Below are positions 5,487 to 30,006 of a stretch of DNA of 31,669 nucleotides, piece by piece. The DNA is from Candidatus Poribacteria bacterium (lineage in GTDB: Bacteria > Abyssobacteria > SURF-5). The stretch is taken from assembly GCA_016215705.1 (NCBI GenBank), contig JACRIR010000043.1, positions 1 through 31,669 of the forward strand, read 5' to 3'. Positions within the stretch are counted from its first letter, which is position 1. Every line of letters begins with the position of its first letter. The translations under genes were made by a program, and so were the position numbers. The notes beneath the pieces are model-generated. The model was given only the letters and a program-made list of their open reading frames with translations. It did not search any database and was not told where the DNA came from.

Positions 5487-6422
5487 ATGGACATTTTCTT
5501 ACCCATAGCGGGGAAAAGCATTAACGTGTTCCTTGTCGTAGGCATAGGAGGCATAGTCGGCTTTCTGTCCGGCCTGTTTGGAGTGGGTGGAGGCTTTTTG
5601 CTTACACCACTCCTAATGATGATTGGAATCCCGCCCGCGGTGGCAGCGGCGAGCGATTCAAACCAGATAGTCGCTTCTGCCTCCTCGGCGGCGGCCACTC
5701 ATTACAGGATGGGCCACGTCGACATGAAGATGGGGATCATCATCCTGATAGGAGGCCTGTCAGGCGGCACGCTTGGCGTGCAAGTGGTCAAAATATTGCG
5801 AGAGATGGGAAACTTTGACTTCTTCATCAAGGCGGTTTATGTGGTGATTCTCGGTGTCATAGGCGGTCTCATGTTCATGGAGAGCCTTCGCAGTCTGCGT
5901 CGTTCCGCCACAGCCGGTCCGGTCGAGGCTCAGGCGCCCGGTTCGCGACGGTTCTCCGATTGGTTTCAGGCGCTTCCCCTGCAAATGGAGTTCAAGAACC
6001 TTGGAATGAGGACCTCGGCCATATTTCCTTTTGTTGCGGGCATGATCGTCGGGATTCTGGCAGCCATTATGGGGGTTGGCGGGGGATTCATCATGGTGCC
6101 GACAATGATTTACATCATCGGTATGCCAACGGTTATGGCGGTCGGCACCGACCTCTTCCAGATTGTCATCACTTCGGCCAACGTTACGTTTCAACAGGCT
6201 ATGAGAAATCATACCGTGGACCTCATGCTTGCGGTGATCCTTTTCTGCGGCTCGGTTTTCGGAGCGCAACTGGGCGCTCGAGTAAGCAAGAAATTGAGAG
6301 GCGAACAGATACGAATACTCCTCGCGGTGATTGTGCTGATAGTAATGGTGAAGCTTTTGTTCGACCTGATTCGCACTCCTGAGAACGTCATAGACTTCGT
6401 AAGAGCGAGTGGAGGACATTGA
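5487..6422 (+). CDS. TSUP (TauE/SafE) family anion permease 1
   Basis: The 311-residue membrane protein has the two-lobe TSUP architecture: the glycine motif GLFGVGGGFLLTP (about residues 29-41) recurs in the second half as IMGVGGGFIMVP (about 194-205), with roughly eight to nine hydrophobic segments and a polar cytoplasmic linker near 140-170. TSUP members move sulfite, sulfonates, thiosulfate or organic anions across the inner membrane; the substrate here is not readable. The ATG at 5487 follows AGAAGGAGG by four bases. The next gene, a TIGR02186-like protein, begins two bases after the stop, an arrangement familiar for TSUP genes. Paired palindromes upstream suggest regulated expression. 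It is one of three TSUP paralogues in the window and the only one on the plus strand. Confidence 0.9.
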   Translation: MDIFLPIAGKSINVFLVVGIGGIVGFLSGLFGVGGGFLLTPLLMMIGIPPAVAAASDSNQIVASASSAAATHYRMGHVDMKMGIIILIGGLSGGTLGVQVVKILREMGNFDFFIKAVYVVILGVIGGLMFMESLRSLRRSATAGPVEAQAPGSRRFSDWFQALPLQMEFKNLGMRTSAIFPFVAGMIVGILAAIMGVGGGFIMVPTMIYIIGMPTVMAVGTDLFQIVITSANVTFQQAMRNHTVDLMLAVILFCGSVFGAQLGARVSKKLRGEQIRILLAVIVLIVMVKLLFDLIRTPENVIDFVRASGGH

Positions 6423-8229: not shown

Positions 8230-8760
8230 TTACACAATATGTTTGATAACCTCGTGAATCACGTCCTCGGCATAGACGAGTCCCACTATTTGACCGTCGC
8301 GAACGACCGGCACAAAACTCAAATCGCGGTCTATCATTAAGTGAATGGCCACCATCGCATAATCGTCGTAGTCGACAGTCGCTTGAATTGGCGCCATGAA
8401 TTCAATGATCTGTCGCTCGATCTGATTGCGAAGTTCCTGAATCGCCTTCTCGGGTGAGAAACCGAAACGGTAGAGATTCTGGTCTGAGGCTGCGTCGGGG
8501 ACCGACGGATAGTAATCTCTCACCTTGCTAGGCGTGAGACTCGGCTTGAGCCCCTGCAGTATCTCGCGTCGGCGCACAATCCCGAGGAGTTGGTTGCGCG
8601 CGCTGAACACAAGGATAACCCACGGGATCGGCTTCTGATTGGCGCGCTTGATCTCAGCTTCCTCCAGTTCCGCCAGCGCTTGCCGCAACGTGAACCAATA
8701 AGGAATATATGGGAATTCCTCGAGCGGCATCATGATTTCACCCGCGCGCTTCATCAACAT
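8230..8760 (-). CDS. CBS-domain protein
   Basis: The 176-residue soluble protein looks like a pair of CBS motifs: the first around residues 8-75 (MPLEEFPYIPYWFTLRQALAEL ... LLGIVRRREIL) and the second around 115-172 (FMAPIQATVDYDDYAMVAIHLM ... VPVVRDGQIVGLVYAEDVI). Between them lies an insert of about 40 residues. CBS pairs commonly bind adenine nucleotides and report energy state. ATG 8760 is preferred to an upstream TTG because a G-rich ribosome binding site lies six bases before it. It is the last gene of the run 12934 to 8230, after the first PEP-synthase-like gene, so it may regulate that protein or the adjoining permease; this is inference. Confidence 0.8.
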   Translation of the reverse strand: MLMKRAGEIMMPLEEFPYIPYWFTLRQALAELEEAEIKRANQKPIPWVILVFSARNQLLGIVRRREILQGLKPSLTPSKVRDYYPSVPDAASDQNLYRFGFSPEKAIQELRNQIERQIIEFMAPIQATVDYDDYAMVAIHLMIDRDLSFVPVVRDGQIVGLVYAEDVIHEVIKHIV

Positions 8761-8869
8761 TAGCAACCCCCCCTAAGAGAAAGGCGAAGGGCGAAAGAAG
8801 CAAGGCGAAAGAGAAAACCCGAAGGAAAAGAGAGATTGCCTCGCTTCGCTCGCAATAACTGTGCAGATA

Positions 8870-11569: not shown

Positions 11570-12607
11570 TTATGCTTGCTTCAATGAAGCTTCTGACTTC
11601 TGCCTTTTCTGTGTCTTCTCCTGCTTGAAGCCGCGAATCATAAGCACAACAATAACCAGGCACATCGCGAGCGCTGCGCCCATCACGCAATAAGCCGCCA
11701 CGGTAGTCATGTTCATCTGCTTCATGGTAACCGACACACCCGCCAGGATAATCATAATGGCGAACAGCAAACGAATGCCATAGCCGTGGATGTATTTGAC
11801 AGCGGCCACGCCAATCTGGGCGCCCACCGACGCTCCACAAAGCATGATAATCGCAGCGATAATTTCCACCCGCGCCTTCAGAGCATACGTAAAGCATCCA
11901 TATGCCCCTGTGAAAACCACGCTAAACAGGTCTGTTCCGACAGCGATGGCTGTTGGACACCCGATGAGGTAGATGAGAGCGGGCATGCGGATGAATCCCC
12001 CGCCCACTCCAAGGAATCCGGACAACCAACCAGTAAAGAAAAACACGACCATGACGGTCCAAAGCGAAACGGTTACACCGGACACGGGGAAAGTGACCAT
12101 CGGGGGCAGATTCCACTTCTTCTTTGCCGGCGCTGCCGGGCCTCTCTCCATTTCTATTGCCCTTTGCCTAGCCAGCCGTTTGTCTTTAGTAAAATAATCG
12201 TAGAGCATGTATATGCCCAGTCCGAAAAGCAAGACCATGTATGCATATCGCACCACCGGCCCCGCCACTCCTTTTGCAGTGAGCCACATTACGTTGCGGG
12301 CGCCGACCTCCACGCCGATGACCGAACCCACAATCGAGAGAAGCCCGAGCTTCACGTCCACGTTGCCCATCTTGCCGTGTTTCCGGGAGGCAACTATGGA
12401 CTTGCCGAAAATATGAGCCAGATCCGTACCTATCGCATACGCCATATTGAATCCGAAAATGTTGAGCGCGGGCGTAACAACCCACGCGCCGCCCACCCCG
12501 AAGAATCCGCCCAACACTCCAACCGAAAAACCGATTGCCAAAAGGATTAGTATATTGAAGTTAATCCCCGCTATCGGCAAATAGATGTCAAGTATTCCGT
12601 GGTCCAT
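11570..12607 (-). CDS. TSUP (TauE/SafE) family anion permease 2
   Basis: The 345-residue membrane protein has paired TSUP motifs, FFGVGGAWVVTP (about 35-46) and FLGVGGGFIRMP (about 220-231). The N-terminal LPIAGI matches the start of TSUP 1 (LPIAGK), supporting paralogy. A polar linker around 150-185 joins the lobes and the C-terminus is lysine-rich (QEKTQKRQKSE). The second motif, with IRMPALIYLIGCPTAIAVGTDL, is closer to TSUP 3 (IRVPALVYIVG) than to TSUP 1, so TSUP 2 and 3 appear to be the nearer pair. AAGGA sits eight bases before the ATG. It follows the small companion gene by 27 bases, almost certainly in the same transcript. Substrate unknown. Confidence 0.9.
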   Translation of the reverse strand: MDHGILDIYLPIAGINFNILILLAIGFSVGVLGGFFGVGGAWVVTPALNIFGFNMAYAIGTDLAHIFGKSIVASRKHGKMGNVDVKLGLLSIVGSVIGVEVGARNVMWLTAKGVAGPVVRYAYMVLLFGLGIYMLYDYFTKDKRLARQRAIEMERGPAAPAKKKWNLPPMVTFPVSGVTVSLWTVMVVFFFTGWLSGFLGVGGGFIRMPALIYLIGCPTAIAVGTDLFSVVFTGAYGCFTYALKARVEIIAAIIMLCGASVGAQIGVAAVKYIHGYGIRLLFAIMIILAGVSVTMKQMNMTTVAAYCVMGAALAMCLVIVVLMIRGFKQEKTQKRQKSEASLKQA

Positions 12608-13911: not shown

Positions 13912-13979
13912 ATATGCAAGATGTCACGCCTGCACCGAGTGTTTCTCGCATTCTTCACCGACTTCGAAGGTTGAATCCT

Positions 13980-14405
13980 ATGGTTGGACAGATACGTGTG
14001 CTTCTGGCCGATGACGAGAAGGCTTTTCTTGATTCGCTCGTCAAAGTGCTTTCAAGGCGAGGCATTGCGGCGCGGACTGCGTACGACGGTCGCGCCGCCC
14101 TTGAAGTTCTCTCTCATGAACAGTTCGATGTGATCGTATTGGACGTCCGGATGCCTGTCATGGACGGCCTGGCCGCCCTCCGCGAAATTCGACGGACCGA
14201 CACCCTCACGCCCGTTCTTCTACTGAGCGGGCAAGCCGATCTGGGATACGTGGGTGAGGCGATGAAAGGCGGGGCCGCAGATTACTTATTGAAGCCTTGC
14301 GACATCGACACGCTCATTTCTGCAATCGAGAATGCCCACGAGCGAAAGAAGATAAGGATGGAAGTGGCGCAAGAGTCGCCCAAGAAACAACCCCGCAGTA
14401 AGTAA
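13980..14405 (+). CDS. Stand-alone response regulator receiver
   Basis: The 141-residue protein is a single receiver domain: acidic pair Asp11-Asp12, phospho-acceptor Asp55 (VLDVRMP), Ser83 at the switch position and Lys105 in LKPCDID. There is no output domain, so it should act by protein contact or as a phosphorelay intermediate. ATG 13980 is preferred to an ATG at 13914 because the extra 22 residues are not receiver-like and GAAGG lies upstream of 13980. The KPC motif is shared with three other receivers in the window but not with the NtrC-type one. No kinase adjoins it; the nearest are the dCache kinases more than 6 kb away on the other strand. It is the only plus-strand gene among the minus-strand transporter units. 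Confidence 0.88.
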   Translation: MVGQIRVLLADDEKAFLDSLVKVLSRRGIAARTAYDGRAALEVLSHEQFDVIVLDVRMPVMDGLAALREIRRTDTLTPVLLLSGQADLGYVGEAMKGGAADYLLKPCDIDTLISAIENAHERKKIRMEVAQESPKKQPRSK

Positions 14406-14522: not shown

Positions 14523-17183
14523 TTACCCGTTCTTAGCGCCGGTGATTCCTTCGAGCCCGTAATCTCCCTTTAGAAATGCTTCCATAATCTGCCGGGCGGA
14601 TTCGTCGCTCGCCATCGCAAGGTCCATTTGCCGCATGAACTGAAGGAGTCGCCCAAGCATCTCAAGGTGTTCTTCAGTCTCTTTTCGGCTGGCTTTGTTC
14701 AAGCGCGCATTGACGAGATCGCGGTTGACGGTAACCGAGAAACCGTTCTGTCTCAGTATCTCGCTGATGGCCCGGGCTCTGCGACTTCGCCGAACAATGT
14801 CCGCGGCTCCTCCCCGAAAAAGCAGGTTGATATAGTTCTTGTTTGCTGTTTCGCCGCAATAGGTGTCTACCACGCCGAAGTGGTAGCCGACCCGCGAAGT
14901 GTAGTTCAGATAATTATCTGAAACGAGCGCATAACATGGGTCGCGGAAGGTTCTGTCGTTCTCAGGATTGTCGATGGCGTGGCGCATCATCATTGAGAAA
15001 AGGCCTCCCATGTCGAGCGGCTTGGGGCCGAAGCGAGGTATCTTCTCATGCAACATTCCCCTCAAGATGGCCGTGAGAGGCACAGAAGTGACGTGCGAGC
15101 GCTTCACCTTGCGCACTCTATCTGACACTCTGACACCGCCGCCAAGGTCGATGATGTAGAGGTCGATTGGCAGAAAGACGTCCAAATGATAGCTCGAGGC
15201 CCGGAAATCCCCGAGCGTCTCACCCATGCGAAACATCTCCTCATATGACTTCTCGTGTATAAAGCGGGCCAGATCATGGAGGGTCCGGCAGTTGTCAACG
15301 GCAAACTTGGGAGAAGCCGGGTTAGTGAGATTCAAGGGAATCACTGCTTCGGATATCTTCTCGAGGAGTCTCATGACCGGGGTTTCACGCCGCGACCGCC
15401 CGCTTTCTTTTGTATCGTTTTCGGGAGCCTCTTTTCGAATAATGTCGTCCACTATGCCCGCATAAATACAGCCGCTGGTTGCGTCGACCGTCACGGGTGA
15501 GCCTTCAGGCAGCAGCCGGGTTGCCGACTTTGTGTTCAACAAGGTCGGCACTCGAAACTCTCGAGCCAGGTTTGCCATGTGGCCGGTTACGCTGCCTGCG
15601 TCGGTGACTATCGCATGCGCCTTGGACATGAGGCGCACGAACTTCGGCGAAGACCGCCGGGCCACGAGCACTCCGCCGATTGGAAAAGACTCGAAATCAC
15701 CGTCATCGTCCATGTGCACTGCAACCCCCGCGCCCACGCCGGGACACGCGATATCTCCTCCGCTCAGCAAGACTGCGCTTCCCTCAATCACACGGCAGGT
15801 CCGCAAAGTCTGGGTCAACATGCGCAGCGGGCGCGATTGGAGTAGCACGAACCGGCGTTTGCCGTCCATTGCCCACTCGATATCCTGGGGTCTGCCGAAA
15901 TGTTTTTCGAGAGCAAGCGCCCATCGCGCAAGTTGGAGCGCCTCGTCATCCGTGATGGTCGGCTCCCCGGCCATCTCCGGTTCGATAGGTCTTTCTATCA
16001 TTCCGGAATCCGGCAGACAAGACAGATAACTTGTCTGGCTCGATGGCGTCCGCGAGATCACACGGGGCGCCGCATGGCGGGAAATGATGATTGTTTCAGG
16101 TGATGACCCGCCGTCCACCAGAGTGACACCCAGACCCCACACGGCATTGATAAGGACGTGGTCGGGCTCGGAACGGTTCGGGCTGTTCGAGAAAATCACG
16201 CCGCTCGCAACTGCGTCAATCATGGCGATACAGCCCACAGCCATTGCAGCGGATTCGTCGGATATGCCGTGGAGAAGGCGATAATGAATGGCCTCACGAG
16301 AAAAAAGACTTGCGAGCACCTCTCGGTATGCTTTGAGCAGACCTTCCCGATTCACATTGAGAACCGACAGGAATTGACCCGCAAAGGAAAGATTCGAATC
16401 TTCTCCGAGCGCGCTCGATCGGACCGCCAGGCGTGGGGGAGGGCCCAATCTCGATGTGAGCCGGTCGTATGCGGCATAAATCTCTGTTTCAAGGTCGCCG
16501 GGAAGAGGCGCGGTCATGATCGCCTTGCGAAGTCTTTCGCTCAATTCCCCTGCATCTGCCTGCGAGAATAATCCCGCCTGCTTTTCCTGGAGCAGGGTCT
16601 TGATTTCACCACTGTCGAAAACGACACGGCATGCGCCGGTGGTTACCGCGAATCCGTCCGGCGCGGGCAGCTTGAGACGGTTTCGCATCTCGCCCAGATT
16701 GGCCATTTTACCGCCGACAATGTCGGAATCACTGCCGGAGATTCCCGATATGTCAAAGACGGGTTCTTCCACGTACTGGGCTATCGGCTGCTCCATCACT
16801 CTGACCAACTCTTCAGTGCTCTTTTCGAGAACACTCTGAAGCGCACCGTATCTTCCCGAAGAGATCGTGTTGATGGAATCAGCCATGAGATGAATATCCG
16901 CCACGGCGCGCGCTACCTTACGTTTGAGGTAGGGGAGGTCGAAGAAATCGCCCTCGTGTTTCTTTTGTTCGAGGTCAGCGATGATTTCAAGAAAACTGTT
17001 ATTGGCGGAAAGAAGTTTGCGGAACTCGGTATGGTAGAGCTTGAATCTGGCAAGTTGCGCTTGATGCTCGACAATCTGCTCCTGGCGGAGGCCGATTATT
17101 TCCAGAAATACAAGAAAGCTTCTCCACATGGAACCGAGGAAACCGACAATCCCGCCTTTCACTCGCTCGCGCCATGTGGACAA
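14523..17183 (-). CDS. PEP-synthase-like phosphotransfer protein lacking the PEP barrel (2)
   Basis: The 886-residue paralogue of the 8870-11404 product has the same order: helical N-terminus (1-145), ATP-grasp/PPDK-N domain (about 150-455) with IVGGKMANLGEM, RLAVRSSALGED and QDIEWAMDGKRRFVLLQSRP, and phospho-histidine domain (about 475-575) with GSVTGHMANLARE (His535). It again has no PEP/pyruvate barrel and ends in the shared helical region carrying 'TLHDLARFIHEKSYEEMF'. The first 35 residues are more hydrophobic than in copy 1 (GSMWRSFLVFLEIIGL), hinting at membrane association. The start is a TTG at 17183 preceded by AGGAGGG ten bases away; no closer ATG fits. It is the last gene of the TSUP 3 unit, 49 bases after the 220-residue membrane protein. 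Confidence 0.85.
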   Translation of the reverse strand: MSTWRERVKGGIVGFLGSMWRSFLVFLEIIGLRQEQIVEHQAQLARFKLYHTEFRKLLSANNSFLEIIADLEQKKHEGDFFDLPYLKRKVARAVADIHLMADSINTISSGRYGALQSVLEKSTEELVRVMEQPIAQYVEEPVFDISGISGSDSDIVGGKMANLGEMRNRLKLPAPDGFAVTTGACRVVFDSGEIKTLLQEKQAGLFSQADAGELSERLRKAIMTAPLPGDLETEIYAAYDRLTSRLGPPPRLAVRSSALGEDSNLSFAGQFLSVLNVNREGLLKAYREVLASLFSREAIHYRLLHGISDESAAMAVGCIAMIDAVASGVIFSNSPNRSEPDHVLINAVWGLGVTLVDGGSSPETIIISRHAAPRVISRTPSSQTSYLSCLPDSGMIERPIEPEMAGEPTITDDEALQLARWALALEKHFGRPQDIEWAMDGKRRFVLLQSRPLRMLTQTLRTCRVIEGSAVLLSGGDIACPGVGAGVAVHMDDDGDFESFPIGGVLVARRSSPKFVRLMSKAHAIVTDAGSVTGHMANLAREFRVPTLLNTKSATRLLPEGSPVTVDATSGCIYAGIVDDIIRKEAPENDTKESGRSRRETPVMRLLEKISEAVIPLNLTNPASPKFAVDNCRTLHDLARFIHEKSYEEMFRMGETLGDFRASSYHLDVFLPIDLYIIDLGGGVRVSDRVRKVKRSHVTSVPLTAILRGMLHEKIPRFGPKPLDMGGLFSMMMRHAIDNPENDRTFRDPCYALVSDNYLNYTSRVGYHFGVVDTYCGETANKNYINLLFRGGAADIVRRSRRARAISEILRQNGFSVTVNRDLVNARLNKASRKETEEHLEMLGRLLQFMRQMDLAMASDESARQIMEAFLKGDYGLEGITGAKNG

Positions 17184-18229: not shown

Positions 18230-19291
18230 TCACACCACAAGCGGCGGAACCCAAGCCGGAACACTCTTGCCGCGCCGATGGCGCAACGCAAAAAGCACGA
18301 GCGACATGATGAATAAGCAGAGGAATATCATCTCGCCCAAGGTCAGCATCACGGCGAACAAGGAGAGCCATTCGATCGACTGACCGCTCAGGACGTATGC
18401 AAGCCGCAATACCGCTCCGCACGTCGCTAGAATCAGTGAGTAGCTGAGGATGTAGCGGATTGCAGGTCCGCGAACGAAGGCCGTCGCCATGCTCCCAATC
18501 TGAGCGCCAAGCATCGCACCGGACAGCATGAACACCACTGCTACTATGTCCACGTGCCCTTCGATGGAATGTCTCAACGCCCCGTAACCACCGGAGAACA
18601 CAATTTCCACGAGATCGGTGCCTACTGCGATATGTGTGGAAGCTCCGACGATGTAGACCAAGGCGGGAACACGGATGAAACCGCCACCCACGCCGAGGAA
18701 TCCCGCGAGAACTCCGGTCACGAGTCCAACAATCACAATAACCCACATCGATACGACCACGCGCGCGGTGCGGCAAATCACTATCGGCGCAAGCGGGATG
18801 TTCTGAAACATTGCCGGCAGCGAGCTGGTCTGAACCTCGCGCGAAACGCTCTTGCCCTCGCGCGCCATATCCTCAATCTTCTTGTGGGCGCGCCGCGTCT
18901 CTATCTGAGTGTAAAGAAACAGGAAGAACATCACAACCACCGACGTCATAAGCAGGACGACAGTGGACAGGCCCATATGCTTGAGGTAGACAAGCAGCCT
19001 GACTCCAAGTTCCACGCCGAGCATTGTGCCGGCTACCATGCTCAAGGCCATCGTCCAGTCGATGTTGCCGAGCTGCCGATGCCGTATTGTGGAAACTACG
19101 CCTTTGCCGGCGATGTGCGTCATGTCGATTCCCGAAGCCATATATCCGGGAAACCCGAATACTATGAGCGCCGGGGTGACCATATAGCCGCCACCCACAC
19201 CGATGAAACCGCCGACTATTCCGACAGTGAAGCCGACAAGCACGAGCAGCGGTATCGGCGCCTCAATGCCTGCTACCGGAAAATTGAACAT
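18230..19291 (-). CDS. TSUP (TauE/SafE) family anion permease 3
   Basis: The 353-residue membrane protein has the TSUP glycine motifs FIGVGGGYMVTP (about 30-41) and FLGVGGGFIRVP (about 220-231) and roughly eight to nine membrane helices. The linker of about 60 residues near 130-190 is charged (RRAHKKIEDMAREGKSV) and cytoplasmic. The N-terminus FPVAGIEAPIP corresponds to LPIAG in the other two. AAGGAGA sits six bases before the ATG. It follows its 185-residue companion gene by 15 bases and is followed by three small membrane ORFs. Substrate unknown; sulfite or organic sulfonate export is a family-based possibility only. Confidence 0.9.
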   Translation of the reverse strand: MFNFPVAGIEAPIPLLVLVGFTVGIVGGFIGVGGGYMVTPALIVFGFPGYMASGIDMTHIAGKGVVSTIRHRQLGNIDWTMALSMVAGTMLGVELGVRLLVYLKHMGLSTVVLLMTSVVVMFFLFLYTQIETRRAHKKIEDMAREGKSVSREVQTSSLPAMFQNIPLAPIVICRTARVVVSMWVIVIVGLVTGVLAGFLGVGGGFIRVPALVYIVGASTHIAVGTDLVEIVFSGGYGALRHSIEGHVDIVAVVFMLSGAMLGAQIGSMATAFVRGPAIRYILSYSLILATCGAVLRLAYVLSGQSIEWLSLFAVMLTLGEMIFLCLFIMSLVLFALRHRRGKSVPAWVPPLVV

Positions 19292-19993: not shown

Positions 19994-20446
19994 TCATCCC
20001 TCGTCTTTTTCAAAAACAGCCATGGGGTGGCTGATGATTCTCTCTACCTTCGCCTTGCGGATTTTCTCTTCCGCAGACTGCTTCTTATCAAACGCATCTT
20101 TTATTTTGGCCAACATATCCTCTATTGCGCACGGCTTCATGACGTAGTCAAAAGCGCCAAGCTTGAGTCCCTCGACGGCGGATTCGACCGACGCATGACC
20201 CGTGAGCATGACTACTTCCACGAGAGGATACTTCTGACGCATCTTGCGCAGAACCTCGACTCCGTCGAGCCCCGGCATCTTAACGTCGAGAACGACTACG
20301 TCAATCCGGCGCTCTTCCATTATCTTGAGCGCGTCAAAGCCGTTGGTCGCCGTGGCCGTCTCGATGTCCCGCTTGTCCAGAAGTTTCTTTGTGGTTTCCA
20401 GGAACCGCTCCTCGTCGTCCACCAAAAGCAAATGAATCGTTGACAT
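19994..20446 (-). CDS. Stand-alone response regulator receiver, kinase-coupled
   Basis: The 150-residue product is a receiver (Asp10-Asp11, phospho-acceptor Asp54 in VLDVKMP, Thr82, Lys104 in MKPCAIED) followed by a charged helical tail of about 30 residues and no DNA-binding domain. ATG 20446 overlaps the kinase stop as TAATG, and GGAGG lies nine bases upstream inside the kinase gene; the longer open frame reaching 20599 is a shadow of the kinase. The overlap argues that it is the direct partner of the 579-residue kinase. The tail (RIISHPMAVFEKDEG) resembles that of the 22185-22676 receiver, so the two are probably paralogues. Confidence 0.88.
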   Translation of the reverse strand: MSTIHLLLVDDEERFLETTKKLLDKRDIETATATNGFDALKIMEERRIDVVVLDVKMPGLDGVEVLRKMRQKYPLVEVVMLTGHASVESAVEGLKLGAFDYVMKPCAIEDMLAKIKDAFDKKQSAEEKIRKAKVERIISHPMAVFEKDEG

Positions 20447-22185
20447 TATTGATTTCCTCCCTGTTCGTGAGCCGCCGCCTCCGCCGTCGCGCTTTGCGCT
20501 GTCCCGGGGAGCGGCAGCCGCACGGTGAAGACGCTGCCTGCGTTCAGTTCGCTGCTCACCGTGATTTGTCCACCAAGGCGCTCGATGATGCCGTAGCACG
20601 TGCTAAGACCCAAACCTGTCCCCCGTCCCACCGGCTTTGTCGTGAAGAACGGAAGGAATATCTTTTCGAGATTCTCTTCCGGAATACCGCAACCGTTGTC
20701 TGCCACCGATACTACCAGCGCGCCGTCTTGTTTCGCGGCGCCGATCCGAATCTCTCCCTTCTCTTTCCCCTTTAACGCGTCAACGGCATTGTTCAAGAGA
20801 TTCAGGAATACCTGTTGAAGCTGAGCCGGATCAGTCTGAAGCGGCGGCAGCTCCCCCTCAAACTGTTGTATGATTTGGATGTTTTCCACATAGGCTTTTC
20901 GCTCGACCATGCCGACTATCTCACGCATGAACGGCTGCAGCTCGATTGTCTGGATGCTCGGCTCGGTCTTACGCGCGAATTTCAGCAGCCCCTGAGTGAT
21001 CTGTTTGCATCTGTCAATCTGCAAATCGATCTGGTTGACCGAGTCCCGAACCGTCCGGATGTTCTCGCCGTCGGGAAGCGTTCCGTCCGCCTCCATTTCC
21101 TTGAAAATTTCTTTTATCAGCGCTTCTTCCGATTTCATTATTTGCAGAGGATTGTTGATCTCGTGGGCTATTCCCGCGCTCATTTCGCCGACCTCCGCCA
21201 GCTTGCCGGCCATGATCAATTGGCTGCCCATCTGCCGTTTCTCCATGTCGGCGATAGTGAGTTGGTTGGCAAGGCCCGATGCCAGGAAAAAGCCCATGGT
21301 CACCACTACGGCCCCGCCGATTACGATTACCGCGACGGCAATGAGAACGGCGCGGGTCAGCGGCGCATATGCGTCGCCTATCTCCTGTCGAACCACCAGA
21401 ATCCAATCCGTTTCGCGAAGTCTGCCCGTTGCGTAGAGATGTCGGCCGCCGCTCGCATCATTTGCGGCAAACGAGGCAATCGCATTATCTTCGCTCCGGT
21501 AAATGAGATGGTCCTGGTCGATTTCCATGAGAGCGCCGCCGGAGCGGCGCGGGGTCTGGAAACCTCCCCTTCGGTTTATCAGGTATGCTTCCCCCGTTTT
21601 CCCCACGCGGATATTCTCAACAAGGTTGTTGAAGAACATGCTGTCGACCGTGGCGCGCAGGTACCATGTCGCATCGCCCTCTCTTCGCTGGACGGCGATA
21701 ACAAAATGCGGGATGTTACGGTACCCCTTGAACACATCCGAAATGTATATCCCTTTGTTATGAACCGCTTGAAACCAGTCGGCCTGAGAGTAGTTCTTCC
21801 CCTTAAGGTCGAAAGGTCCTGCGTAGGCGACATGATTACCGTGCTCGTCAAAAACGCCGAGGTCGAAGAACGCCTGTGAGCCCGTCTGCAGGAGACTCAG
21901 AATCTCCTCGAGTCGGCCGTTGCTGCTCAACTCTTTGAAACTGTGCGAGTCAGCGACGAATTCGAGTTGAAACGACAATTCTCCGAGAAACTGATCGATG
22001 AGGCGACAATGCCCGTCCGCGATGCGGCTCAACTCCGTGGCCACGTGGCCGCGAAGGTTGACGGCGAAATAGTACACCAGAGTGCCGCACACCATCATCA
22101 CGGCGATGAACGGTACAAGGAGCACCCTGCTCAGGATCATGAGACGGGTTCTCTTGAATCGTTCGTTTGCCCCGCGTCCAGGCAT
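20446..22185 (-). CDS. dCache sensor histidine kinase
   Basis: The 579-residue membrane kinase has helix 1 (about 16-40), a periplasmic double-Cache sensor (about 45-270; [34 protein letters not shown]), helix 2 (about 278-303), a dimerisation domain with His341 in GIAHEINNP, and an HATPase domain with [19 protein letters not shown] and [14 protein letters not shown]. No HAMP or PAS domain was seen between helix 2 and His341. Such sensors usually bind small organic ligands, for example carboxylates or amino acids. Its ATG overlaps the stop of the preceding receiver as TAATG, and its own stop overlaps the next receiver the same way, so receiver-kinase-receiver is one coupled unit. It is paralogous to the 24762-26552 kinase. 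Confidence 0.92.
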
Positions 22186-22676
22186 TATTGTTCTTCCTTA
22201 TCCAGTTCCTTTATCCGCCGCAGGATTGCCATGGGCGACTCTGATTTGGCCATTGAGAGAACCTCATCCATGCGATCCTGTTTGATCTTCATCTTGTTCA
22301 TGACCCGCTTCTTGTACGCTTCCGTGAGAACGGAGAGGAGCTTGTCCAACTCGCACGGCTTCTGCAAATAGTGATAAGCCCCCTTGCGCGTGCAATCAAC
22401 GGCCGAATCCGTCGAACCGTGACCGGTCAATATCACTACTTCCATCCATTTGTGCTCTTTCTTGAGAGCTTCAAGCGTCTGCTCGCCGTTGATACCCGGC
22501 ATTTTCAGGTCCACCAAAGCGATATCAATCGGATGCGTCCGCGCCGCTTCGATAGCCTTTTCGCCCCGGTTCACGGCCACGACCTTGAAGTCTCTTACCT
22601 CGAGCCTCTTGGATATGGATTCGAGGAATTGCTCCTCGTCGTCAACGATCAGTAGATTGATTTTTTCTTTTGTCAT
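22185..22676 (-). CDS. Stand-alone response regulator receiver
   Basis: The 163-residue receiver has Asp12-Asp13, phospho-acceptor Asp56 (LVDLKMP), Thr84 and Lys106 in LQKPCELDK, with a charged C-terminal tail of about 45 residues (MKIKQDRMDEVLSMAK...) and no recognised output domain. ATG 22676 is preceded by GGGGGA nine bases upstream; the much longer open frame to 23180 is a shadow of the transporter. It starts 23 bases after the receiver-transporter fusion gene and overlaps the following kinase start as TAATG. Its GHGST...LQKPC core is nearly the same as in the fused receiver, suggesting duplication. Confidence 0.88.
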   Translation of the reverse strand: MTKEKINLLIVDDEEQFLESISKRLEVRDFKVVAVNRGEKAIEAARTHPIDIALVDLKMPGINGEQTLEALKKEHKWMEVVILTGHGSTDSAVDCTRKGAYHYLQKPCELDKLLSVLTEAYKKRVMNKMKIKQDRMDEVLSMAKSESPMAILRRIKELDKEEQ

Positions 22677-22699
22677 TTTCTGTAATCCCCCATTGTTCT

Positions 22700-24769
22700 T
22701 TAGAAGATTCCAAACCAGCGCCAATATCCGTAGAACGCCCACGCCCACATTACGACCAGCGAGATGATCAAAATGGCGGTGCCGTGCTTCAAGAAGTCCA
22801 TGTTGGTCACTAACTGTTCGCCCGTCTCCGGGTCCTTCGCGAAGCTGTAGCAAATGGCGTTGTTGGGAGTCCCCACAATAAACATGAACGCGAATGAAGA
22901 AGCGAAGGCCGTGGCAAGCCCGACCATTATGGGTGACACTCCCGATATCGTCGCCATAGGCACAGTGATCGGTCCAACGGCGGCCACGGTTGCGCCGTCG
23001 CTCATGAAGTTGGTGATGATCCCGCTTATCAGGCTGGCGGAGACGGCCAAACCGGTTCCATTCTTCATGACTTCCGGCAATGCGCTCACGAAAGTGTCTG
23101 CTAGCCATATCGCTCCGCCGGTCATGGCCAGCCCGGCGCCCGTCGCGGTCGCGGCCGCGTAGAGAGCCACCACGTCCCAATGGATGCCAGCAACGTCACG
23201 CCAGCGGGTGATGCCGAGAATATTAAGAAGTACGACGGCGAGAACGACCGGCCCGCCCATCCCGTATTTGTCACTGAATCCGCACCACAGGATGACCAGC
23301 AGTACAAGAACACCGGCTGTGAGGTATTCCTGCCTGGTCATCTTGCCGATCTTTTCGGATTCTCGAGCGATCTCGGCGGCCATATTGAAATTCTTGACTT
23401 TTATTTTTCTGCGGAAGACGATATAGAAATACAGCCCGATGGATATCGCCAACACCGGCACCAACGGAAGCCCGATCTTTACCCATTGACCGAAGGTCGG
23501 CGCCATGCCGTAGTCGGAGAGAATACTGATCATGACGGCGTTGCGCCCGCCCGCCGCAGGAGAGCCGGGTCCGCCCACGTTGGCGGCGAAGGTCAACATC
23601 AACATCATCATCACGATCAGATCGCGGTCCTTCCTCAGCCCTGCAGATTTGATTATCGCCATGTATCCGAGCATGAAAATGGGCGCAAGAAAAGCGACTA
23701 ACGCATGTTCGGAGAGGAATCCCGCTGTGACTGCCAACAGAGGCGGGAAGATGAAGAGGAGCTTGGTCACGGACGTGCTTGTTCCCAGCAACAAGGAACC
23801 TATGCGGCGGTCAAGGCCCGTCTTGCCGATTGCGTTGCCCATGGCGAGGACTCCGAAGACGAATATGACCGAGTCTTTGGCAAACGCCGCCGCCAGCTTG
23901 TCCGGAGGCAAGATGCCAAAGAAGTACATGGCCGCGCACACCACCAGCGCAGTCATGCCTACCGGTATTGCCCCGCTCGCCCAGAACACAACGGACATCG
24001 CCAGGATTCCGACCATTACCCGTGCCCTGAACGAGGTTTGCTCGAGAGTGAGAGGAATTTTGACTTCCGTTCCGTCAGGCTGGTGAATCTTCTTCGTCCA
24101 TCCGGCTTTTTCGCTGTAGAAATGGGGAATGGTCTCTCCCGTCTTCATTTTACGGTAGTCTGCATAGCCCATGAGTGGCTCGCCGATGATGTCCGTTTTC
24201 TGCGCCGAAAGCCAACCCTCCAGTTTCCGCGGAGTGGGCATGATTGCGAGGAGCCCGAAAAGGAGGAACCCGAGTATAATGAGGCCGGGCCGTCTATTGT
24301 GCGCGCCTATAAGCCATTTCCTTATGTTGTCCTTCTTTACGTCCGGAATCTCATGGCGCGCCATTGCATAGACCCGTTCCTGCCGGGCCGCATCGATCAC
24401 TTGCACAAGTTCATCGAGAGCGCAAGGTTTCTGAAGATAATGGAACACGTCGTACTTGCCGGTGACACGCGCCGATTCCGTGCTGCCGTGACCGGTCAGC
24501 ATCACCACCTGCACCTCCGGCCGTATCTTCTTGATCTCCTTCAACGTTTGGATGCCGTCCATATCCGGCATCTTTTGGTCGAGCACAACGACCTCGAGGT
24601 CCGTATGCCGGATTATCTTGATGGCATCCTGCCCATTGTCTACGTCGAGGACCTTGTAACCGCGGACCTCCAACTGCTTCTTTGTCGCGATTCTGAACTG
24701 GTTCTCGTCGTCGACTAGAAGCACCTTGGTCACACCGTCCGCGGCCTTGACTGCGGTGTTCTCAGACAT
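22700..24769 (-). CDS. Receiver domain fused to a DASS/SLC13-type transporter
   Basis: The 689-residue single frame joins two normally separate proteins. Residues about 14-128 are a complete receiver (Asp20-Asp21, phospho-acceptor Asp64 in VVLDQKMPDMDG, Thr92, Lys114 in LQKPCAL). A linker leads to a first membrane helix (about 162-178), an extracytoplasmic loop of about 70 residues, and a multi-helix carrier (about 248-689). The carrier keeps DASS-like features: GGPGSPAAGGRN (about 399-409), TNFMSDGATVA in the second hairpin, and FIVGTPNNAICYS near 631-643, close to the sodium:sulfate/dicarboxylate symporter signature. The canonical SNT residues are altered (GRN, SDG), so substrate or ion coupling may differ. 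ATG 24769 follows GGAGG by nine bases; a GTG at 24775 is less well spaced. It overlaps the upstream kinase stop by eight bases. Phosphorylation of the receiver by that kinase probably gates or targets the carrier. Confidence 0.88.
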   Translation of the reverse strand: MSENTAVKAADGVTKVLLVDDENQFRIATKKQLEVRGYKVLDVDNGQDAIKIIRHTDLEVVVLDQKMPDMDGIQTLKEIKKIRPEVQVVMLTGHGSTESARVTGKYDVFHYLQKPCALDELVQVIDAARQERVYAMARHEIPDVKKDNIRKWLIGAHNRRPGLIILGFLLFGLLAIMPTPRKLEGWLSAQKTDIIGEPLMGYADYRKMKTGETIPHFYSEKAGWTKKIHQPDGTEVKIPLTLEQTSFRARVMVGILAMSVVFWASGAIPVGMTALVVCAAMYFFGILPPDKLAAAFAKDSVIFVFGVLAMGNAIGKTGLDRRIGSLLLGTSTSVTKLLFIFPPLLAVTAGFLSEHALVAFLAPIFMLGYMAIIKSAGLRKDRDLIVMMMLMLTFAANVGGPGSPAAGGRNAVMISILSDYGMAPTFGQWVKIGLPLVPVLAISIGLYFYIVFRRKIKVKNFNMAAEIARESEKIGKMTRQEYLTAGVLVLLVILWCGFSDKYGMGGPVVLAVVLLNILGITRWRDVAGIHWDVVALYAAATATGAGLAMTGGAIWLADTFVSALPEVMKNGTGLAVSASLISGIITNFMSDGATVAAVGPITVPMATISGVSPIMVGLATAFASSFAFMFIVGTPNNAICYSFAKDPETGEQLVTNMDFLKHGTAILIISLVVMWAWAFYGYWRWFGIF

Positions 24770-26552
24770 TTGCACTCTCCTCCGTTTGGTTTCGCGGGAG
24801 CACGATTGTGAATGAACTGCCGGCGCCGGGCATGCTTTGCACCTCGATGCGCCCTCCCACTGCCTGCACTATGCTTAGACTGATGCTCAGACCCAATCCC
24901 GTCCCTTTACCCACATCCTTTGTGGAATAGAAGGGCAGGAATATTTTCTCCATCTGTTCCGAAGTCATTCCCTTGCCTGTGTCCGTGATCTTGACCCGCA
25001 CCAACTTATCATCATGGCTTGTTCCAAGTGTGATCGCTCCGGACCCTTCGAGCGCGTCGCGAGCGTTGTTGACTATGTTGAGGAATACCTGTCGCATCTG
25101 ATCGGCGTCCAGCATGATTTCGGGAACGTGCGGGTCAAAGTCTCTGAACAGTTGAATACCCGACACCGAAAACTCCTTTTCCATCAGGCCGCTGACCACG
25201 TCCTCCAGAAGCCTGTTAACGCTGCACGAAGTCAATCGAGGCTCGTTTTTCCTCACGATACTGAGCAGTTTCTGAGTGATATCGCGCGCGCGGAATACCG
25301 CCGTGTCTATATGGTCCAACTCTTTCCTGATTTTCTCGGGCGAGCAGTCCATCCCGAACTGGGGGTCGAGCATGTCTCTGATTACCCCGCTCTCAGCCGA
25401 AATGATGGCCAGGGGATTGTTAATCTCATGGGCCACGCCGCCGGCCAGTTCGCCCACCGATACCAACTTGGCGGCATGGAGCAGTTGCGACCTTAGTTCC
25501 TTCCTGGACAAATCTGTTTCTTCCGCGCGCCGGAGGAGTTTGTTCGTTATCAGCCACACTGCGGCGGACATCACTATCACAAGCGCGAACGTGGCGGCAA
25601 TCAATATCCGGCGAGCCCTGTACATTTGAGCGTAGGCGATTCTGAGAGGCTGATTCACCACGAGCACCCAGGGAACCTCTTTAAGCCATGCGTAAGCCAT
25701 CAGCTCAGCGTCGCCGTTGGTCTTGACTTCATTTGCTCCGGATACGGCTTCGCGGGGCGGCATATAGTCGCTGGAATCCAGCACCCTCCCGCGGTCGGGG
25801 TCAACGACTTGATATTTGCCTTCTTTGTTGATCAGCGTCGAGTTTGCGCCCTTGCCGCGGCCGATAGTGCGCAGAAACAAGTAGAATTTGTCGGGATCGA
25901 GCGTGGCGCGCATGACGTAGGGGTTGCCGTCAAATATCTGTTTGACCGCTATTGTGAAATGAGGTTTTTGCCGGAAACCGAGATAAATATCACTGATATG
26001 GTAGTTCTGATCGTGATCGATGAGCGTCCGAAACCATGTTTCGCCGCTGTAATCTTTGCCTTGAAGATAAGCATAAGGACCGGCATAGCCGATCTGTACG
26101 CCGGAACCCTCGAGGAATCCGACATCAACGAATGCATCGCTCATCTCGAGTAAACGCTCCAGGTTACGGCGCATGTTGTCCGGGGTGGGCTCCAATGTGA
26201 AGTCGTAGCGATGAAACAGATTGAAGATGTTGACCACCCGTTCTTGCAGAAAAAGATCGATGGTGTTCCGCTGGCTCTCGGCCAAAGTCGTCAAGTGCAG
26301 CTTGCCGCTTTCTTTCAGCGTAAAGTTGAACTGCATATGAAAATAGAGCGACATGATTGCAAGCGGAACCATGAACGCGGTTAGAATCGCTGCCTGGAGA
26401 TTCCGCCGCAATCGGCGATAATATTCCTCTGTCGCCGAGCGGGAAGTGGGCCGCAAGCCTCTTCCTTCGTGGACGTTCTTCTTTTGGTTGGTGGGCATCC
26501 CGGTGCTCCGCACTGTCACCGCCACTTCCTCCATTTGATCCTTATTCGCCAT
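24762..26552 (-). CDS. dCache sensor histidine kinase, partner of the receiver-transporter
   Basis: The 596-residue kinase has a cytoplasmic N-terminal extension of about 50 basic and polar residues, helix 1 (about 52-72), a periplasmic dCache domain (about 78-305; GFLEGSGVQIGYAGPYAYLQGKDYSG is cut short here to its hallmark GYAGPY at 155-160), helix 2 (about 315-338), His375 in GVAHEINNP, and an HATPase domain with NIVNNARDAL, DTGKGMTSEQ and GKGTGLGLSISLSI. AGGAACTA precedes ATG 26552. It is the first gene of the signalling operon, downstream of a strong sigma-54 promoter, and overlaps the receiver-transporter gene by eight bases, which makes that fusion its likely phospho-acceptor. Its sensor domain resembles that of the 20446-22185 kinase. 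Confidence 0.92.
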   Translation of the reverse strand: MANKDQMEEVAVTVRSTGMPTNQKKNVHEGRGLRPTSRSATEEYYRRLRRNLQAAILTAFMVPLAIMSLYFHMQFNFTLKESGKLHLTTLAESQRNTIDLFLQERVVNIFNLFHRYDFTLEPTPDNMRRNLERLLEMSDAFVDVGFLEGSGVQIGYAGPYAYLQGKDYSGETWFRTLIDHDQNYHISDIYLGFRQKPHFTIAVKQIFDGNPYVMRATLDPDKFYLFLRTIGRGKGANSTLINKEGKYQVVDPDRGRVLDSSDYMPPREAVSGANEVKTNGDAELMAYAWLKEVPWVLVVNQPLRIAYAQMYRARRILIAATFALVIVMSAAVWLITNKLLRRAEETDLSRKELRSQLLHAAKLVSVGELAGGVAHEINNPLAIISAESGVIRDMLDPQFGMDCSPEKIRKELDHIDTAVFRARDITQKLLSIVRKNEPRLTSCSVNRLLEDVVSGLMEKEFSVSGIQLFRDFDPHVPEIMLDADQMRQVFLNIVNNARDALEGSGAITLGTSHDDKLVRVKITDTGKGMTSEQMEKIFLPFYSTKDVGKGTGLGLSISLSIVQAVGGRIEVQSMPGAGSSFTIVLPRNQTEESANV

Positions 26553-26907: not shown

Positions 26908-28338
26908 CTACTCTTCTTCAGCGCCGCCGTTATGTGTGAGCCCACACTTGTCCATCTTGGCATGGAGCGTAGGCCTCGAGATTCCGAGAAGCTTGGCGGC
27001 GCGGGTCCGGTTGCCATGAGTGAGCTCGAGCGCCTCGCTTAATAGGACGTAAGTAAGGCGGTCGATCAGGCTGGAAAACAAATCGTTGCGGCCACCGGCG
27101 ACGAGATTCTCGCGAACCCACTGTCGAAGAGCCGTATCCGTAACTTCGGAAGTCTCAGCGCCCTGCCCGGCGCTGTTCGATACGGCATGAGATATGTCTT
27201 CCGGACGGATAGGATAGCCGCGGCTGAAGATCAGCGCTTTCTGGAGGGCGTTGGCGAGTTCCCGCACGTTGCCCGGCCATTGATGGCTCTCAACAATTGC
27301 CCTTGCCTCGGCTGTCATTCCGGGGTTATCAATACCCATTTCCCTTGCGAAACGAGCAAGGAAATAGTCGCATAGAAGAGGCGTGTCACGCCTGCGGTCT
27401 CGTAGGGGAGGCAACTCGATTGTGACTACCTTGAGGCGATAGTAAAGATCCTCTCGAAAACGCCCATCAGCAAGGCCTGCTTCAAGGTCGCGATTGGTAG
27501 CCGCGATTATGCGGACATCCACCGGAATCGGCTCGCGCCCGCCTAGGCGTTCGATGCTTTTCTCCTGGAGCAAACGAAGTATCTTCGACTGGATACTAAG
27601 CGGCATGTCGCCAATCTCGTCAAGGAAAACCGTTCCGCCGTCGGCCTGTTCTATTTTTCCGACCCGCCGGTTGACCGCTCCTGTGAAGGCGCCTTTTTCG
27701 TATCCGAACAGCTCGCTTTCGAGTAGAGTCTCCGGAATCGCCACGCAGTTGATAACGAGGAATGGCTTGTCGGCGCGCAGACTGTGCTGATATATCGCGC
27801 GGGCCACCAACTCCTTGCCCGTACCGGACTCGCCCCGGATGAGCACGGTTGCATCGGTCGGAGCCACCCGGCCGATCGCCTTGTACACCTCTTGCATGGG
27901 CTGGCTTCTTCCTATGATCGCGTCAGGGTGGGCGGTCTCAGGGACGACGTCGATTTCTACGCGGGAGCGCATGAACCGGCCCGCCTCAAGCGCTTGTTCG
28001 ATGACCGAAAGTATGTCCGGTATCTCGAATGGCTTGAGCACGTAGTCGAAGGCGCCCAGCTTCGTGGCCTCAATCGCGGTGTCCGTTGTGCCGAAAGCCG
28101 TCATGATAACAACCGGAAGCTTGGGATCGAGTTCGCGCATGGCGCGAAATGCCTCCAGCCCGCTTATCCCGGGCATACGCACGTCCATAATAACAAGGTC
28201 CGGCGTCTTTTCTCTTATCGCTTCAATGCCTGCCTCTCCGGTCGCCGCCGTGCGGACCTCATACCCCTCCTCGGTGAGCAATCGGTCGAAGCTCTGCCTC
28301 AACTGAGAATCATCGTCCACAATGAGAATCGAACTCAC
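26908..28338 (-). CDS. NtrC-family sigma-54-dependent response regulator
   Basis: The 476-residue protein has a receiver (1-115; Asp8-Asp10 cluster, phospho-acceptor Asp52 in IMDVRMPG, Lys102 in LKPFE), a sigma-54-interacting AAA+ domain (about 140-370) with Walker A GESGTGKE (169-176), the sigma-54 contact loop GAFTGA (216-221) and Walker B VFLDEIGD, and a C-terminal Fis-type helix-turn-helix (HGNRTRAAKLLGISRPTLHAKM). All catalytic elements are present. The start is GTG 28338 after GGAGG. Its receiver has KPF rather than the KPC of the other four, so it belongs to a different lineage and is probably phosphorylated by the 494-residue kinase just upstream. A -24/-12 promoter before its own start suggests autoregulation, and another lies before the transporter operon that follows. 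Confidence 0.95.
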   Translation of the reverse strand: MSSILIVDDDSQLRQSFDRLLTEEGYEVRTAATGEAGIEAIREKTPDLVIMDVRMPGISGLEAFRAMRELDPKLPVVIMTAFGTTDTAIEATKLGAFDYVLKPFEIPDILSVIEQALEAGRFMRSRVEIDVVPETAHPDAIIGRSQPMQEVYKAIGRVAPTDATVLIRGESGTGKELVARAIYQHSLRADKPFLVINCVAIPETLLESELFGYEKGAFTGAVNRRVGKIEQADGGTVFLDEIGDMPLSIQSKILRLLQEKSIERLGGREPIPVDVRIIAATNRDLEAGLADGRFREDLYYRLKVVTIELPPLRDRRRDTPLLCDYFLARFAREMGIDNPGMTAEARAIVESHQWPGNVRELANALQKALIFSRGYPIRPEDISHAVSNSAGQGAETSEVTDTALRQWVRENLVAGGRNDLFSSLIDRLTYVLLSEALELTHGNRTRAAKLLGISRPTLHAKMDKCGLTHNGGAEEE

Positions 28339-28521: not shown

Positions 28522-30006
28522 TCATGCCGCTTCTTTCGCGACCGGAAGTGTGATGATGAAAGTTGTCCCCCAACTTTCTCCAGACCGCAAATCCAGTTGG
28601 CCTCCATGCTCCTCCACGATTCGGGCTGCAATTGCCAGGCCAAGTCCGGTTCCGTCTTCCTTTGTGCTGAAGAAAGGCTCCATGACCTTGTGGCGAATTG
28701 ACTCGGGAATGCCGGGGCCTGTGTCTGTAATCCGCACCAGGACGGCCCGGCCGATTTTCTCCGCGACGGCGTCCTCTTCGGCAATGGTAATGTGCCCGCC
28801 TTTGCCCATTGCCTCGCACGCGTTAACGATAAGGTTGACAAGTACTTCCTTCAATTGTTCGGGGTCAGCCTCGATAGGTGGAAGAAACTCTGCCCTCTGC
28901 CGCTCGACCTTCACGTTATGGTGTTCGAGCCGGCTCTGAAGCAACTCCAATGTCACGTCAACCACGTCCGAGACGTCAATTTTTCGCATCTTGAGTTTCG
29001 GCGGTCGGGAGAACTCAAGGAAGTTCCTTACGATGGTGTCCAAATGGCGCATTTCTTTGGATATCACATCAAAGTCCGTGGACTGATTCGGCGTCAGATC
29101 GAGCGTGCGCTCCAGAGAAAAAAGCCTCAGCTTGATCGAGGTCATCGGGTTCCGAATACTGTGAGCCACTTCCGCCGCGAGCTTGCCCACGAGAGCCATT
29201 TTCTCCGATTGCAGCAGCTTCTCCCTGCTTTTCTCAAGCTCGACCTGTGTATGGTCCACGTCTTCTATCAAGCCTCGGACACGACGATTTAGGGCCACCA
29301 TCTCGTTAACGTTTTCCGAGGTCGCGCCGGATTGGCCTGTGTCGAATGCGAGCCTCCGAATCGGACCCAATATCTGAAATACGAGAACAATCGACAACAG
29401 ACCGCCCAGGAAGACAGCCGCTGACATCGCTGTCGCCGCGATAATCCTGAGCCGTCCCGCCTCCACTCGTGTTTCTTCCCATGTCAGATTGATCCGCTTG
29501 CTGTGGATGTTCTTGTATTCCTCACACAAGTTGAGAATCTTGAACAAATTACTGCGCACTTCCTGATGCAGCCGGGCGCCCTCCTTTTGCTTGCCGGACC
29601 TATAAAGGGCAATCACCTCGTCCTTTTGCATGACATAATCATTATATTCTCTTTGAATCAATGAGAGAACGCTTCTGCCTGATGCCGTTTGATCAATTTC
29701 CTCAGCCGCCTTGAGCCGCTCAGCAAAAGCCTCGCGGTACTTTTTCAGTTGAGCAAGCCATTCAGGATTCCCGTCGAGGAAATAGTATGAAACGAACCCT
29801 CTTTGGTTCAGCAGCGCGGTCTCCAATTCTTCTGCCGCCTGCAACGCTGCGACGTTCATTTCAACGACGGAAGTAAAAAGTCGCTCCATTCGAAAGGTGT
29901 ACCACATCATGACCGCTCCGCCGCCCAACGTAATCAGCACGAGGGCGGCGAGAATGAGAAACACGCGGCCGCGCAGGCCAAACGCGCTTGAGAAGTTGAA
30001 GGGCAC
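28522..30006 (-). CDS. Sensor histidine kinase, probable partner of the NtrC-type regulator
   Basis: The 494-residue protein has helix 1 (about 13-36), a helical periplasmic region (about 40-185; GFVSYYFLDGNPEWLAQL) of the four-helix-bundle or CHASE3-like kind, helix 2 (about 188-212), a HAMP-like linker, a helical stalk, His282 in EVAHSIRNPMTSIKLRL, and an HATPase domain with NLIVNACEAMG, DTGPGIPESI and DGTGLGLAIAARI. This organisation is typical of kinases paired with sigma-54 activators. The start is GTG 30006 with AAGGAG six bases upstream. It precedes the activator gene by 183 bases that include a -24/-12 element, so the activator may have both read-through and its own transcription. Confidence 0.92.
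   Translation of the reverse strand: MPFNFSSAFGLRGRVFLILAALVLITLGGGAVMMWYTFRMERLFTSVVEMNVAALQAAEELETALLNQRGFVSYYFLDGNPEWLAQLKKYREAFAERLKAAEEIDQTASGRSVLSLIQREYNDYVMQKDEVIALYRSGKQKEGARLHQEVRSNLFKILNLCEEYKNIHSKRINLTWEETRVEAGRLRIIAATAMSAAVFLGGLLSIVLVFQILGPIRRLAFDTGQSGATSENVNEMVALNRRVRGLIEDVDHTQVELEKSREKLLQSEKMALVGKLAAEVAHSIRNPMTSIKLRLFSLERTLDLTPNQSTDFDVISKEMRHLDTIVRNFLEFSRPPKLKMRKIDVSDVVDVTLELLQSRLEHHNVKVERQRAEFLPPIEADPEQLKEVLVNLIVNACEAMGKGGHITIAEEDAVAEKIGRAVLVRITDTGPGIPESIRHKVMEPFFSTKEDGTGLGLAIAARIVEEHGGQLDLRSGESWGTTFIITLPVAKEAA

Follow-up and report, generated by a model that had tools for sequence, protein, structure and literature searches.

The window, the whole 31,669-nucleotide stretch that was analysed and an entire contig (G000:C97), harbors on its minus strand a gene in which a response-regulator receiver is joined to a membrane carrier. 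The gene and its parts are as follows.

22700..24769, minus strand: receiver-carrier fusion gene, 689 aa (reading frame, Pfam, orthologues in at least 35 loci)
24775..24783, minus strand: putative Shine-Dalgarno sequence GGAGGAGAG for the ATG at 24769 (read from the sequence)
24389..24730, minus strand: receiver domain, residues 14-127, with D20, D21, D64, T92 and K114 (Response_reg; invariant in 35/35; fold Z 22.4 to 3crn)
24230..24388, minus strand: alpha5 extension, conserved linker and TM1, residues 128-180 (invariant alignment columns, regional conservation, model)
24029..24229, minus strand: variable TM1-TM2 loop, residues 181-247, presumed periplasmic (conservation 0.53, the lowest of the folded parts)
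22703..24028, minus strand: DASS/IT-type carrier core, residues 248-689 (PF00939/PF03600, VcINDY alignment, motifs in 35/35, NaCT fold)

A single open frame (24769-22700, minus strand) encodes the 689 residues without interruption from the ATG at 24769, for which GGAGGAGAG is a plausible ribosome-binding site; a GTG two codons ahead of this ATG is a possible alternative start. The only Pfam matches in the protein are Response_reg (PF00072; residues 16-125, 91.4 bits, 5.4e-26, cut-off 30.2) and the carrier families Na_sulph_symp (PF00939; residues 248-688, 113.6 bits, cut-off 27) and CitMHS (PF03600; 114.3 bits, cut-off 31.9). A first-pass annotation had read a receiver and a carrier in one uninterrupted frame and expected these very families; all three lie far above their cut-offs, the concern that the carrier region might match no transporter family falls away with the PF00939 score, and the receiver-carrier architecture of 22700-24769 is certain. 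The same annotation had correctly placed the reading frame of a histidine kinase at 24762-26552, which has 8 bases (24762-24769) in common with the fusion gene.

Multisequence alignment of 35 fused proteins revealed that D20, D21, D64, T92, K114 and P115 of the receiver are invariant (35/35). Asp64, Thr92 and Lys114 had been named correctly at the outset, and the acidic pair D20/D21 joins them. Receiver and carrier core are equally conserved (mean majority 0.79 and 0.80, respectively); the N-terminus and the TM1-TM2 loop are variable and the linker is conserved, with R138, E140, I141, W152, G155, R160 and P161 as its conserved residues. The periplasmic location presumed for the loop is taken from DASS topology. 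Several positions are conserved in the fused receivers and not in stand-alone ones, namely R26 in alpha1, R138, E140 and I141 in the linker, and a series in the C-terminal parts of alpha2 (K51/R54/H55/P58), alpha3 (R83/E85/V86/Q87) and alpha4 (T103/G104/D107). Going by the CheY fold, alpha2, alpha3, alpha4 and alpha5 all end on one face, on the far side from the phosphorylation site, and it is from there that alpha5 leads into the linker. Because the fused-specific positions cluster at the helix ends opposite the phosphorylation site, we infer that this face of the receiver docks on the carrier, with Asp64 turned toward the cytosol. The N-terminus of DASS carriers is cytoplasmic, and the receiver would therefore sit within reach of a kinase.

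The carrier domain departs from the canonical family in its motifs. The SNT motifs of VcINDY align with SEH (353-355) and SDG (590-592), and the canonical SNT motif, which marks the sodium/substrate site, is absent from both repeats in 35/35 fused proteins, which carry SEH/SDG instead. The same pair occurs in 10/10 unfused sister carriers, and other carrier groups have SAH/SDA, SDH/ADG or GEH/SNG. Also invariant in 35/35 is GGPGSPAAGGRN at residues 399-410. The segment SSFAFMFIVGTPNNAIC differs at two places from the PROSITE pattern for sodium:sulfate/dicarboxylate symporters, and its earlier description as a near-match to that signature is fair. With 162.4 bits against TIGR00785 (dass), the protein stays under the 198.6 cut-off that marks a canonical DASS, and judged by its residues the fused carrier is a non-canonical one. 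Proton coupling, tighter cation binding or a different substrate could lie behind the acidic residue found in each motif; since SEH/SDG stand in for both SNT motifs, sulfate and sodium are not to be assumed. Owing to the unusual motifs and the missed TIGR00785 cut-off, assignment of the substrate rests on context, namely a sulfate cluster known from the literature, the TauE/TSUP genes nearby and the presence of aprA in the genome. On this basis the carrier probably moves sulfate or a similar dianion.

The aprA gene was found above cut-off in 3/3 genomes of the window's phylum, indicating a sulfur-metabolising host, and dsrA (TIGR02064) gave no match above cut-off in any of the three. Scraps resembling the N-terminus of dsrA were observed at two contig starts (G000:C12:2-109 and G000:C112:2-109) and at G001:C125:11973-12029 and G002:C97:11890-11943, and aprA shares a contig with such scraps in G000:C112, G001:C125 and G002:C97. 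The gene may have been broken by assembly, because the scraps lie near contig ends in three genomes that lack an above-cut-off dsrA.

An AlphaFold2 model of the fusion, built with 89 alignment rows, reached a pLDDT of 89.6 and a pTM of 0.79; an earlier model from 10 homologues was discarded (pLDDT 51). Modelled residues 13-140 resemble receivers (3crn, Z 22.4, rmsd 1.5, 128 aligned), and residues ~148-689 resemble NaCT (Z 39.0, rmsd 2.8, 432 aligned), followed by human NaS1 (Z 37.4), Pho90 (8r35, 34.7) and VcINDY (30-33). The linker is the weakest part, with blocks 141-160 at pLDDT 63-70. Structure prediction, which had been proposed for the receiver-carrier interface, thus returned a CheY-like receiver and a DASS-type carrier and did not resolve the interface between them; the model supports the fold of each domain, not how the two are arranged.

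The same architecture, of which a count in other genomes had been called for, recurs in at least 35 loci; at least 35 fused relatives have an intact receiver, nearly all of them from sulfate-reducing bacteria. The fusion is present in 3/3 examined genomes of the window's phylum (67-100% identity, open frames of 713-726 aa) and in five Desulfobacteraceae or deltaproteobacterial MAGs. Counted from listed frames, 32 of 389 sampled genomes of the Desulfobacteraceae-containing order (the order of G003) have a full-length fused frame, and so do three of 395 genomes of the phylum of G006. Two fused genes lie in single-contig genomes of 3,944,167 bases (G463) and 5,197,905 bases (G631), the latter encoding a protein of 691 aa. 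One genome, G505, holds two full-length receiver-carrier frames (C186:3926-5563 and C553:2534-4180). The fusion was not found in 295 genomes from the phylum of a Nitrospirota-titled MAG or in 398 from that of a Competibacteraceae-titled MAG, negatives that weigh little because only two to three candidates per genome were scored, with a full-length query. A 794-aa frame (G1211) was considered as a fusion in other phyla and set aside, as it contains a plain 464-aa carrier.

In a 48-row tree, ten fused carriers group as a single clade (100/100). Its sister group consists of ten unfused carriers of ~40-48% identity whose open frames are mostly ~550-580 aa and whose chains start just before TM1. 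A separate receiver tree likewise unites nine fused receivers in one clade (100/100), placed within the clusters' family of stand-alone receivers and apart from NtrC receivers. Since the fused carriers and their receivers each form one clade, the phylogenetic distribution fits a single fusion event, followed by inheritance or by transfer between the Desulfobacteraceae-containing order and the window's small phylum. Derivation from a receiver gene adjoining unfused carriers was considered and found no support, the fused receivers having no clear sister among 58 other non-NtrC, non-CBS receivers.

The fusion gene stands in a row of two-component genes, accompanied by members of a wider cluster.

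24762..26552, minus strand: histidine kinase 1 (dCache sensor, HisKA, HATPase_c), candidate phosphodonor (Pfam; orthologue directly upstream in 22/26 loci)
22185..22688, minus strand: stand-alone receiver REC2, directly downstream of the fusion (Pfam; orthologues downstream in most fused loci)
20446..22185, minus strand: histidine kinase 2 with dCache sensor (Pfam)
19994..20446, minus strand: stand-alone receiver REC3 (domain annotation)
26908..28338, minus strand: sigma-54-dependent NtrC-type response regulator (Pfam)
28522..30006, minus strand: 4HB histidine kinase, presumed partner of the NtrC-type regulator (Pfam; pair kept beside several fused loci)
18230..19291, minus strand: TauE/SafE (TSUP) membrane protein, one of three in the window (domain annotation)
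8230..8766, minus strand: CBS-domain protein of the wider cluster (domain annotation)

The usual order is an optional pair of 4HB kinase and NtrC-type regulator, then dCache kinase 1, the receiver-carrier, REC2, dCache kinase 2 and REC3, often followed by three more genes, for an unfused carrier (~615 aa), a membrane protein (~174 aa) and a REC-CBS protein, respectively. At 4/26 loci kinase 1 does not lie directly upstream on the same strand, and at one of them (L136) it is adjacent but divergent. The dCache_1 match of kinase 1 in the window scores 40.2 bits, slightly below the cut-off of 45. The segment from the histidine on reads HEINNPLAII in kinase 1 and HEINNPLQ(V/I)M in kinase 2, and alpha1 of the receivers differs by group as well, being FRxxLxKQL in the fused proteins, FLxSIxKxLE in REC2 and FLxTTKxLLEKRG in REC3. 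Such group-specific contact segments are as expected of separate kinase/receiver pairs and are not proof of pairing. It is plausible that kinase 1 is the dedicated partner of the fused receiver, as the first-pass annotation proposed, because the contact segments of this pair differ consistently from those of kinase 2 and the other receivers. The further proposal that the system would act on membrane flux without transcription is too strong: both the window and several relatives have the 4HB kinase and the sigma-54 NtrC-type regulator just upstream, so the fusion is probably accompanied by control at the level of transcription.

Several features of the wider neighbourhood were recorded. Kinase 1 has an extra N-terminal receiver (REC-dCache-kinase, ~681-692 aa) in L074, L137, L139, L141, L151 and L152, so that at these loci both partners, kinase and carrier, bear a receiver. 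A further stand-alone receiver lies on the opposite strand of the window (13914-14405, plus); in the tree it stands apart from the remaining receivers of the cluster. The three TauE/SafE (TSUP) genes of the contig are at 5487-6422 (plus), 11570-12607 (minus) and 18230-19291 (minus), and near them are two genes for PPDK_N + PEP-utilizers proteins (8870-11404 and 14523-17183). TauE and PPDK-like genes appear again beside unfused carriers in L077, L084 and L087, and a PPDK-like gene alone in L082. REC-CBS proteins of ~300 aa adjoin unfused carriers of ~615-650 aa (for example, L072:4231-5154, L073:5350-6285 and L088:6131-7054, among others), an arrangement that may realise the receiver-carrier idea in split form, with a nucleotide sensor added.

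The best-supported reading, which we regard as somewhat probable, is that kinase 1 phosphorylates Asp64 and that the receiver thereby gates a sulfate-like carrier post-translationally. The dCache domain of kinase 1 would sense an external small molecule, possibly sulfate, as has been proposed for the cache kinases of related clusters, and the kinase would pass its phosphoryl group to Asp64 of the receiver, the presumed cytoplasmic N-terminus of the carrier. Phosphorylation may then alter the contact of the receiver with the cytoplasmic face of the carrier, or the pairing of receivers across a presumed carrier dimer, and either change would raise or lower the rate of this elevator-type carrier, which probably transports sulfate or a similar dianion and whose coupling ion could be other than sodium. 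We count in favor of this reading the invariant phospho-residues, a receiver conserved to the same degree as the carrier core, the fused-specific positions on the likely docking face, the single origin kept in two distant lineages, the upstream dCache kinase, the group-specific contact segments, the confident model, the published sulfate cluster and aprA. Against it stands the lack of a fused receiver on the nearest carriers (~40-48% identity), because of which the receiver is not essential for this type of carrier. The low confidence of the modelled linker, the 4/26 loci at which kinase 1 is not placed directly upstream on the same strand, and the replacement of both SNT motifs also count against it. 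To the broader claim, that in sulfate-metabolising bacteria two-component phosphorylation directly gates the uptake of sulfate, or of an anion like it, as terminal electron acceptor, we give even chances.

We consider it unlikely that signals flow the reverse way, with the carrier as a sensor (a transceptor), its receiver docked on kinase 1 or a neighbouring kinase, and substrate occupancy or flux setting the activity of the kinase; gene expression would in turn be controlled by way of the stand-alone receivers and the NtrC-type regulator. Carrier-coupled kinases are known (SLC5/STAC: CbrA, CrbS; PMC9100948) and the locus is crowded with kinases and stand-alone receivers; however, docking alone would not need D64, T92 and K114 to be invariant in 35/35, and kinase 1 already has its own presumed periplasmic sensor. 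The altered SNT motifs might fit a receptor-like carrier, but SEH/SDG are common to the unfused sister clade and therefore speak for no fusion-specific loss of transport.

Single-domain receivers in multi-kinase clusters can serve as phosphate sinks. By extension, the fused receiver might drain the phosphoryl group of kinase 1, or tether the kinase near the carrier, and leave transport not directly affected. That the model resolves no receiver-carrier interface would agree with such a role, which we nonetheless hold to be less probable still than sensing by the carrier, for a sink needs no fusion to a membrane carrier, and both the linker and the side of the receiver remote from the phosphorylation site show conservation particular to the fused proteins. 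Lastly, the joining of two adjacent genes by a frame or assembly error, conceivable because stand-alone receivers often lie near the nearest unfused homologues and named at the outset as a concern should homologues prove split, is refuted by independent genomes and has next to no probability, since the same fusion with the same junction, conserved linker included, recurs in at least 35 loci, two of them in single-contig genomes, which excludes a chance or artefactual junction. Direct gating is thus ranked as better supported than either the flux-sensing transceptor or the phosphate sink or tether, and it suggests that cells may turn uptake up or down by phosphorylation, not by gene expression alone.

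Sulfate reducers have been reported to take up sulfate with either high or low affinity and to change from one mode to the other, with the high-affinity system off at higher sulfate, in PMC5840216 (2018), which also describes group Cii DASS proteins of 474-691 aa in these bacteria and places one of them, TOL2_19410, in the membrane fraction of Desulfobacula toluolica; on the expression of HRM2_38300 at low versus high sulfate, that text contradicts itself. For Desulfobacteraceae and other sulfate reducers, PMC11887813 (2025) describes a gene cluster in which DASS sulfate transporters are accompanied by two-component systems and CBS proteins; its cache-domain kinases are proposed to be sulfate sensors that, along with the CBS proteins, govern the formation of the transporter. 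In neither text, as far as searched, does a receiver-carrier fusion appear; we found no paper on such a fusion in the open-access literature, although it may be described elsewhere, and no account of the molecular switch behind the shift in sulfate uptake. A conserved phospho-receiver on a sulfate-type carrier is a specific candidate for that switch and, if the gating reading is true, would let a two-component system act quickly, and after translation, on the step with which sulfate respiration begins. The classical outputs of response regulators are DNA binding, RNA binding, enzymatic activity and protein binding. With a carrier as fused output, two-component signalling would, if this is true, reach membrane flux directly as well.

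Of the systems that invite comparison, the published cluster (Dvar_38230-38430, PMC11887813) is similar in gene content, with DASS, cache kinases, response regulators and CBS proteins shared by the window and its relatives. With the DASS/SLC13 carriers (VcINDY, NaCT, NaS1; PF00939) the fusion shares its predicted fold (Z 30-39 over 420-450 residues) and two-repeat architecture, but it has SEH/SDG for SNT, a TIGR00785 score below cut-off and an N-terminal receiver. In yeast Pho90, an SPX regulatory domain, which binds inositol pyrophosphates, forms the N-terminus of a DASS carrier. Both proteins thus place a cytosolic regulatory domain ahead of the DASS carrier, and the modelled carrier matches Pho90 (8r35, Z 34.7); the regulatory domain, however, is SPX in the one and, by sequence, a phospho-accepting receiver in the other. 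The SLC5/STAC kinases (CbrA, CrbS, RpuS) likewise unite a carrier and two-component signalling in one polypeptide, but their chain of SLC5 carrier, STAC and kinase core was not found in the fusion by Pfam: there the carrier sits on the kinase, at the input side, whereas here a carrier of another family sits on the receiver, at the output side.
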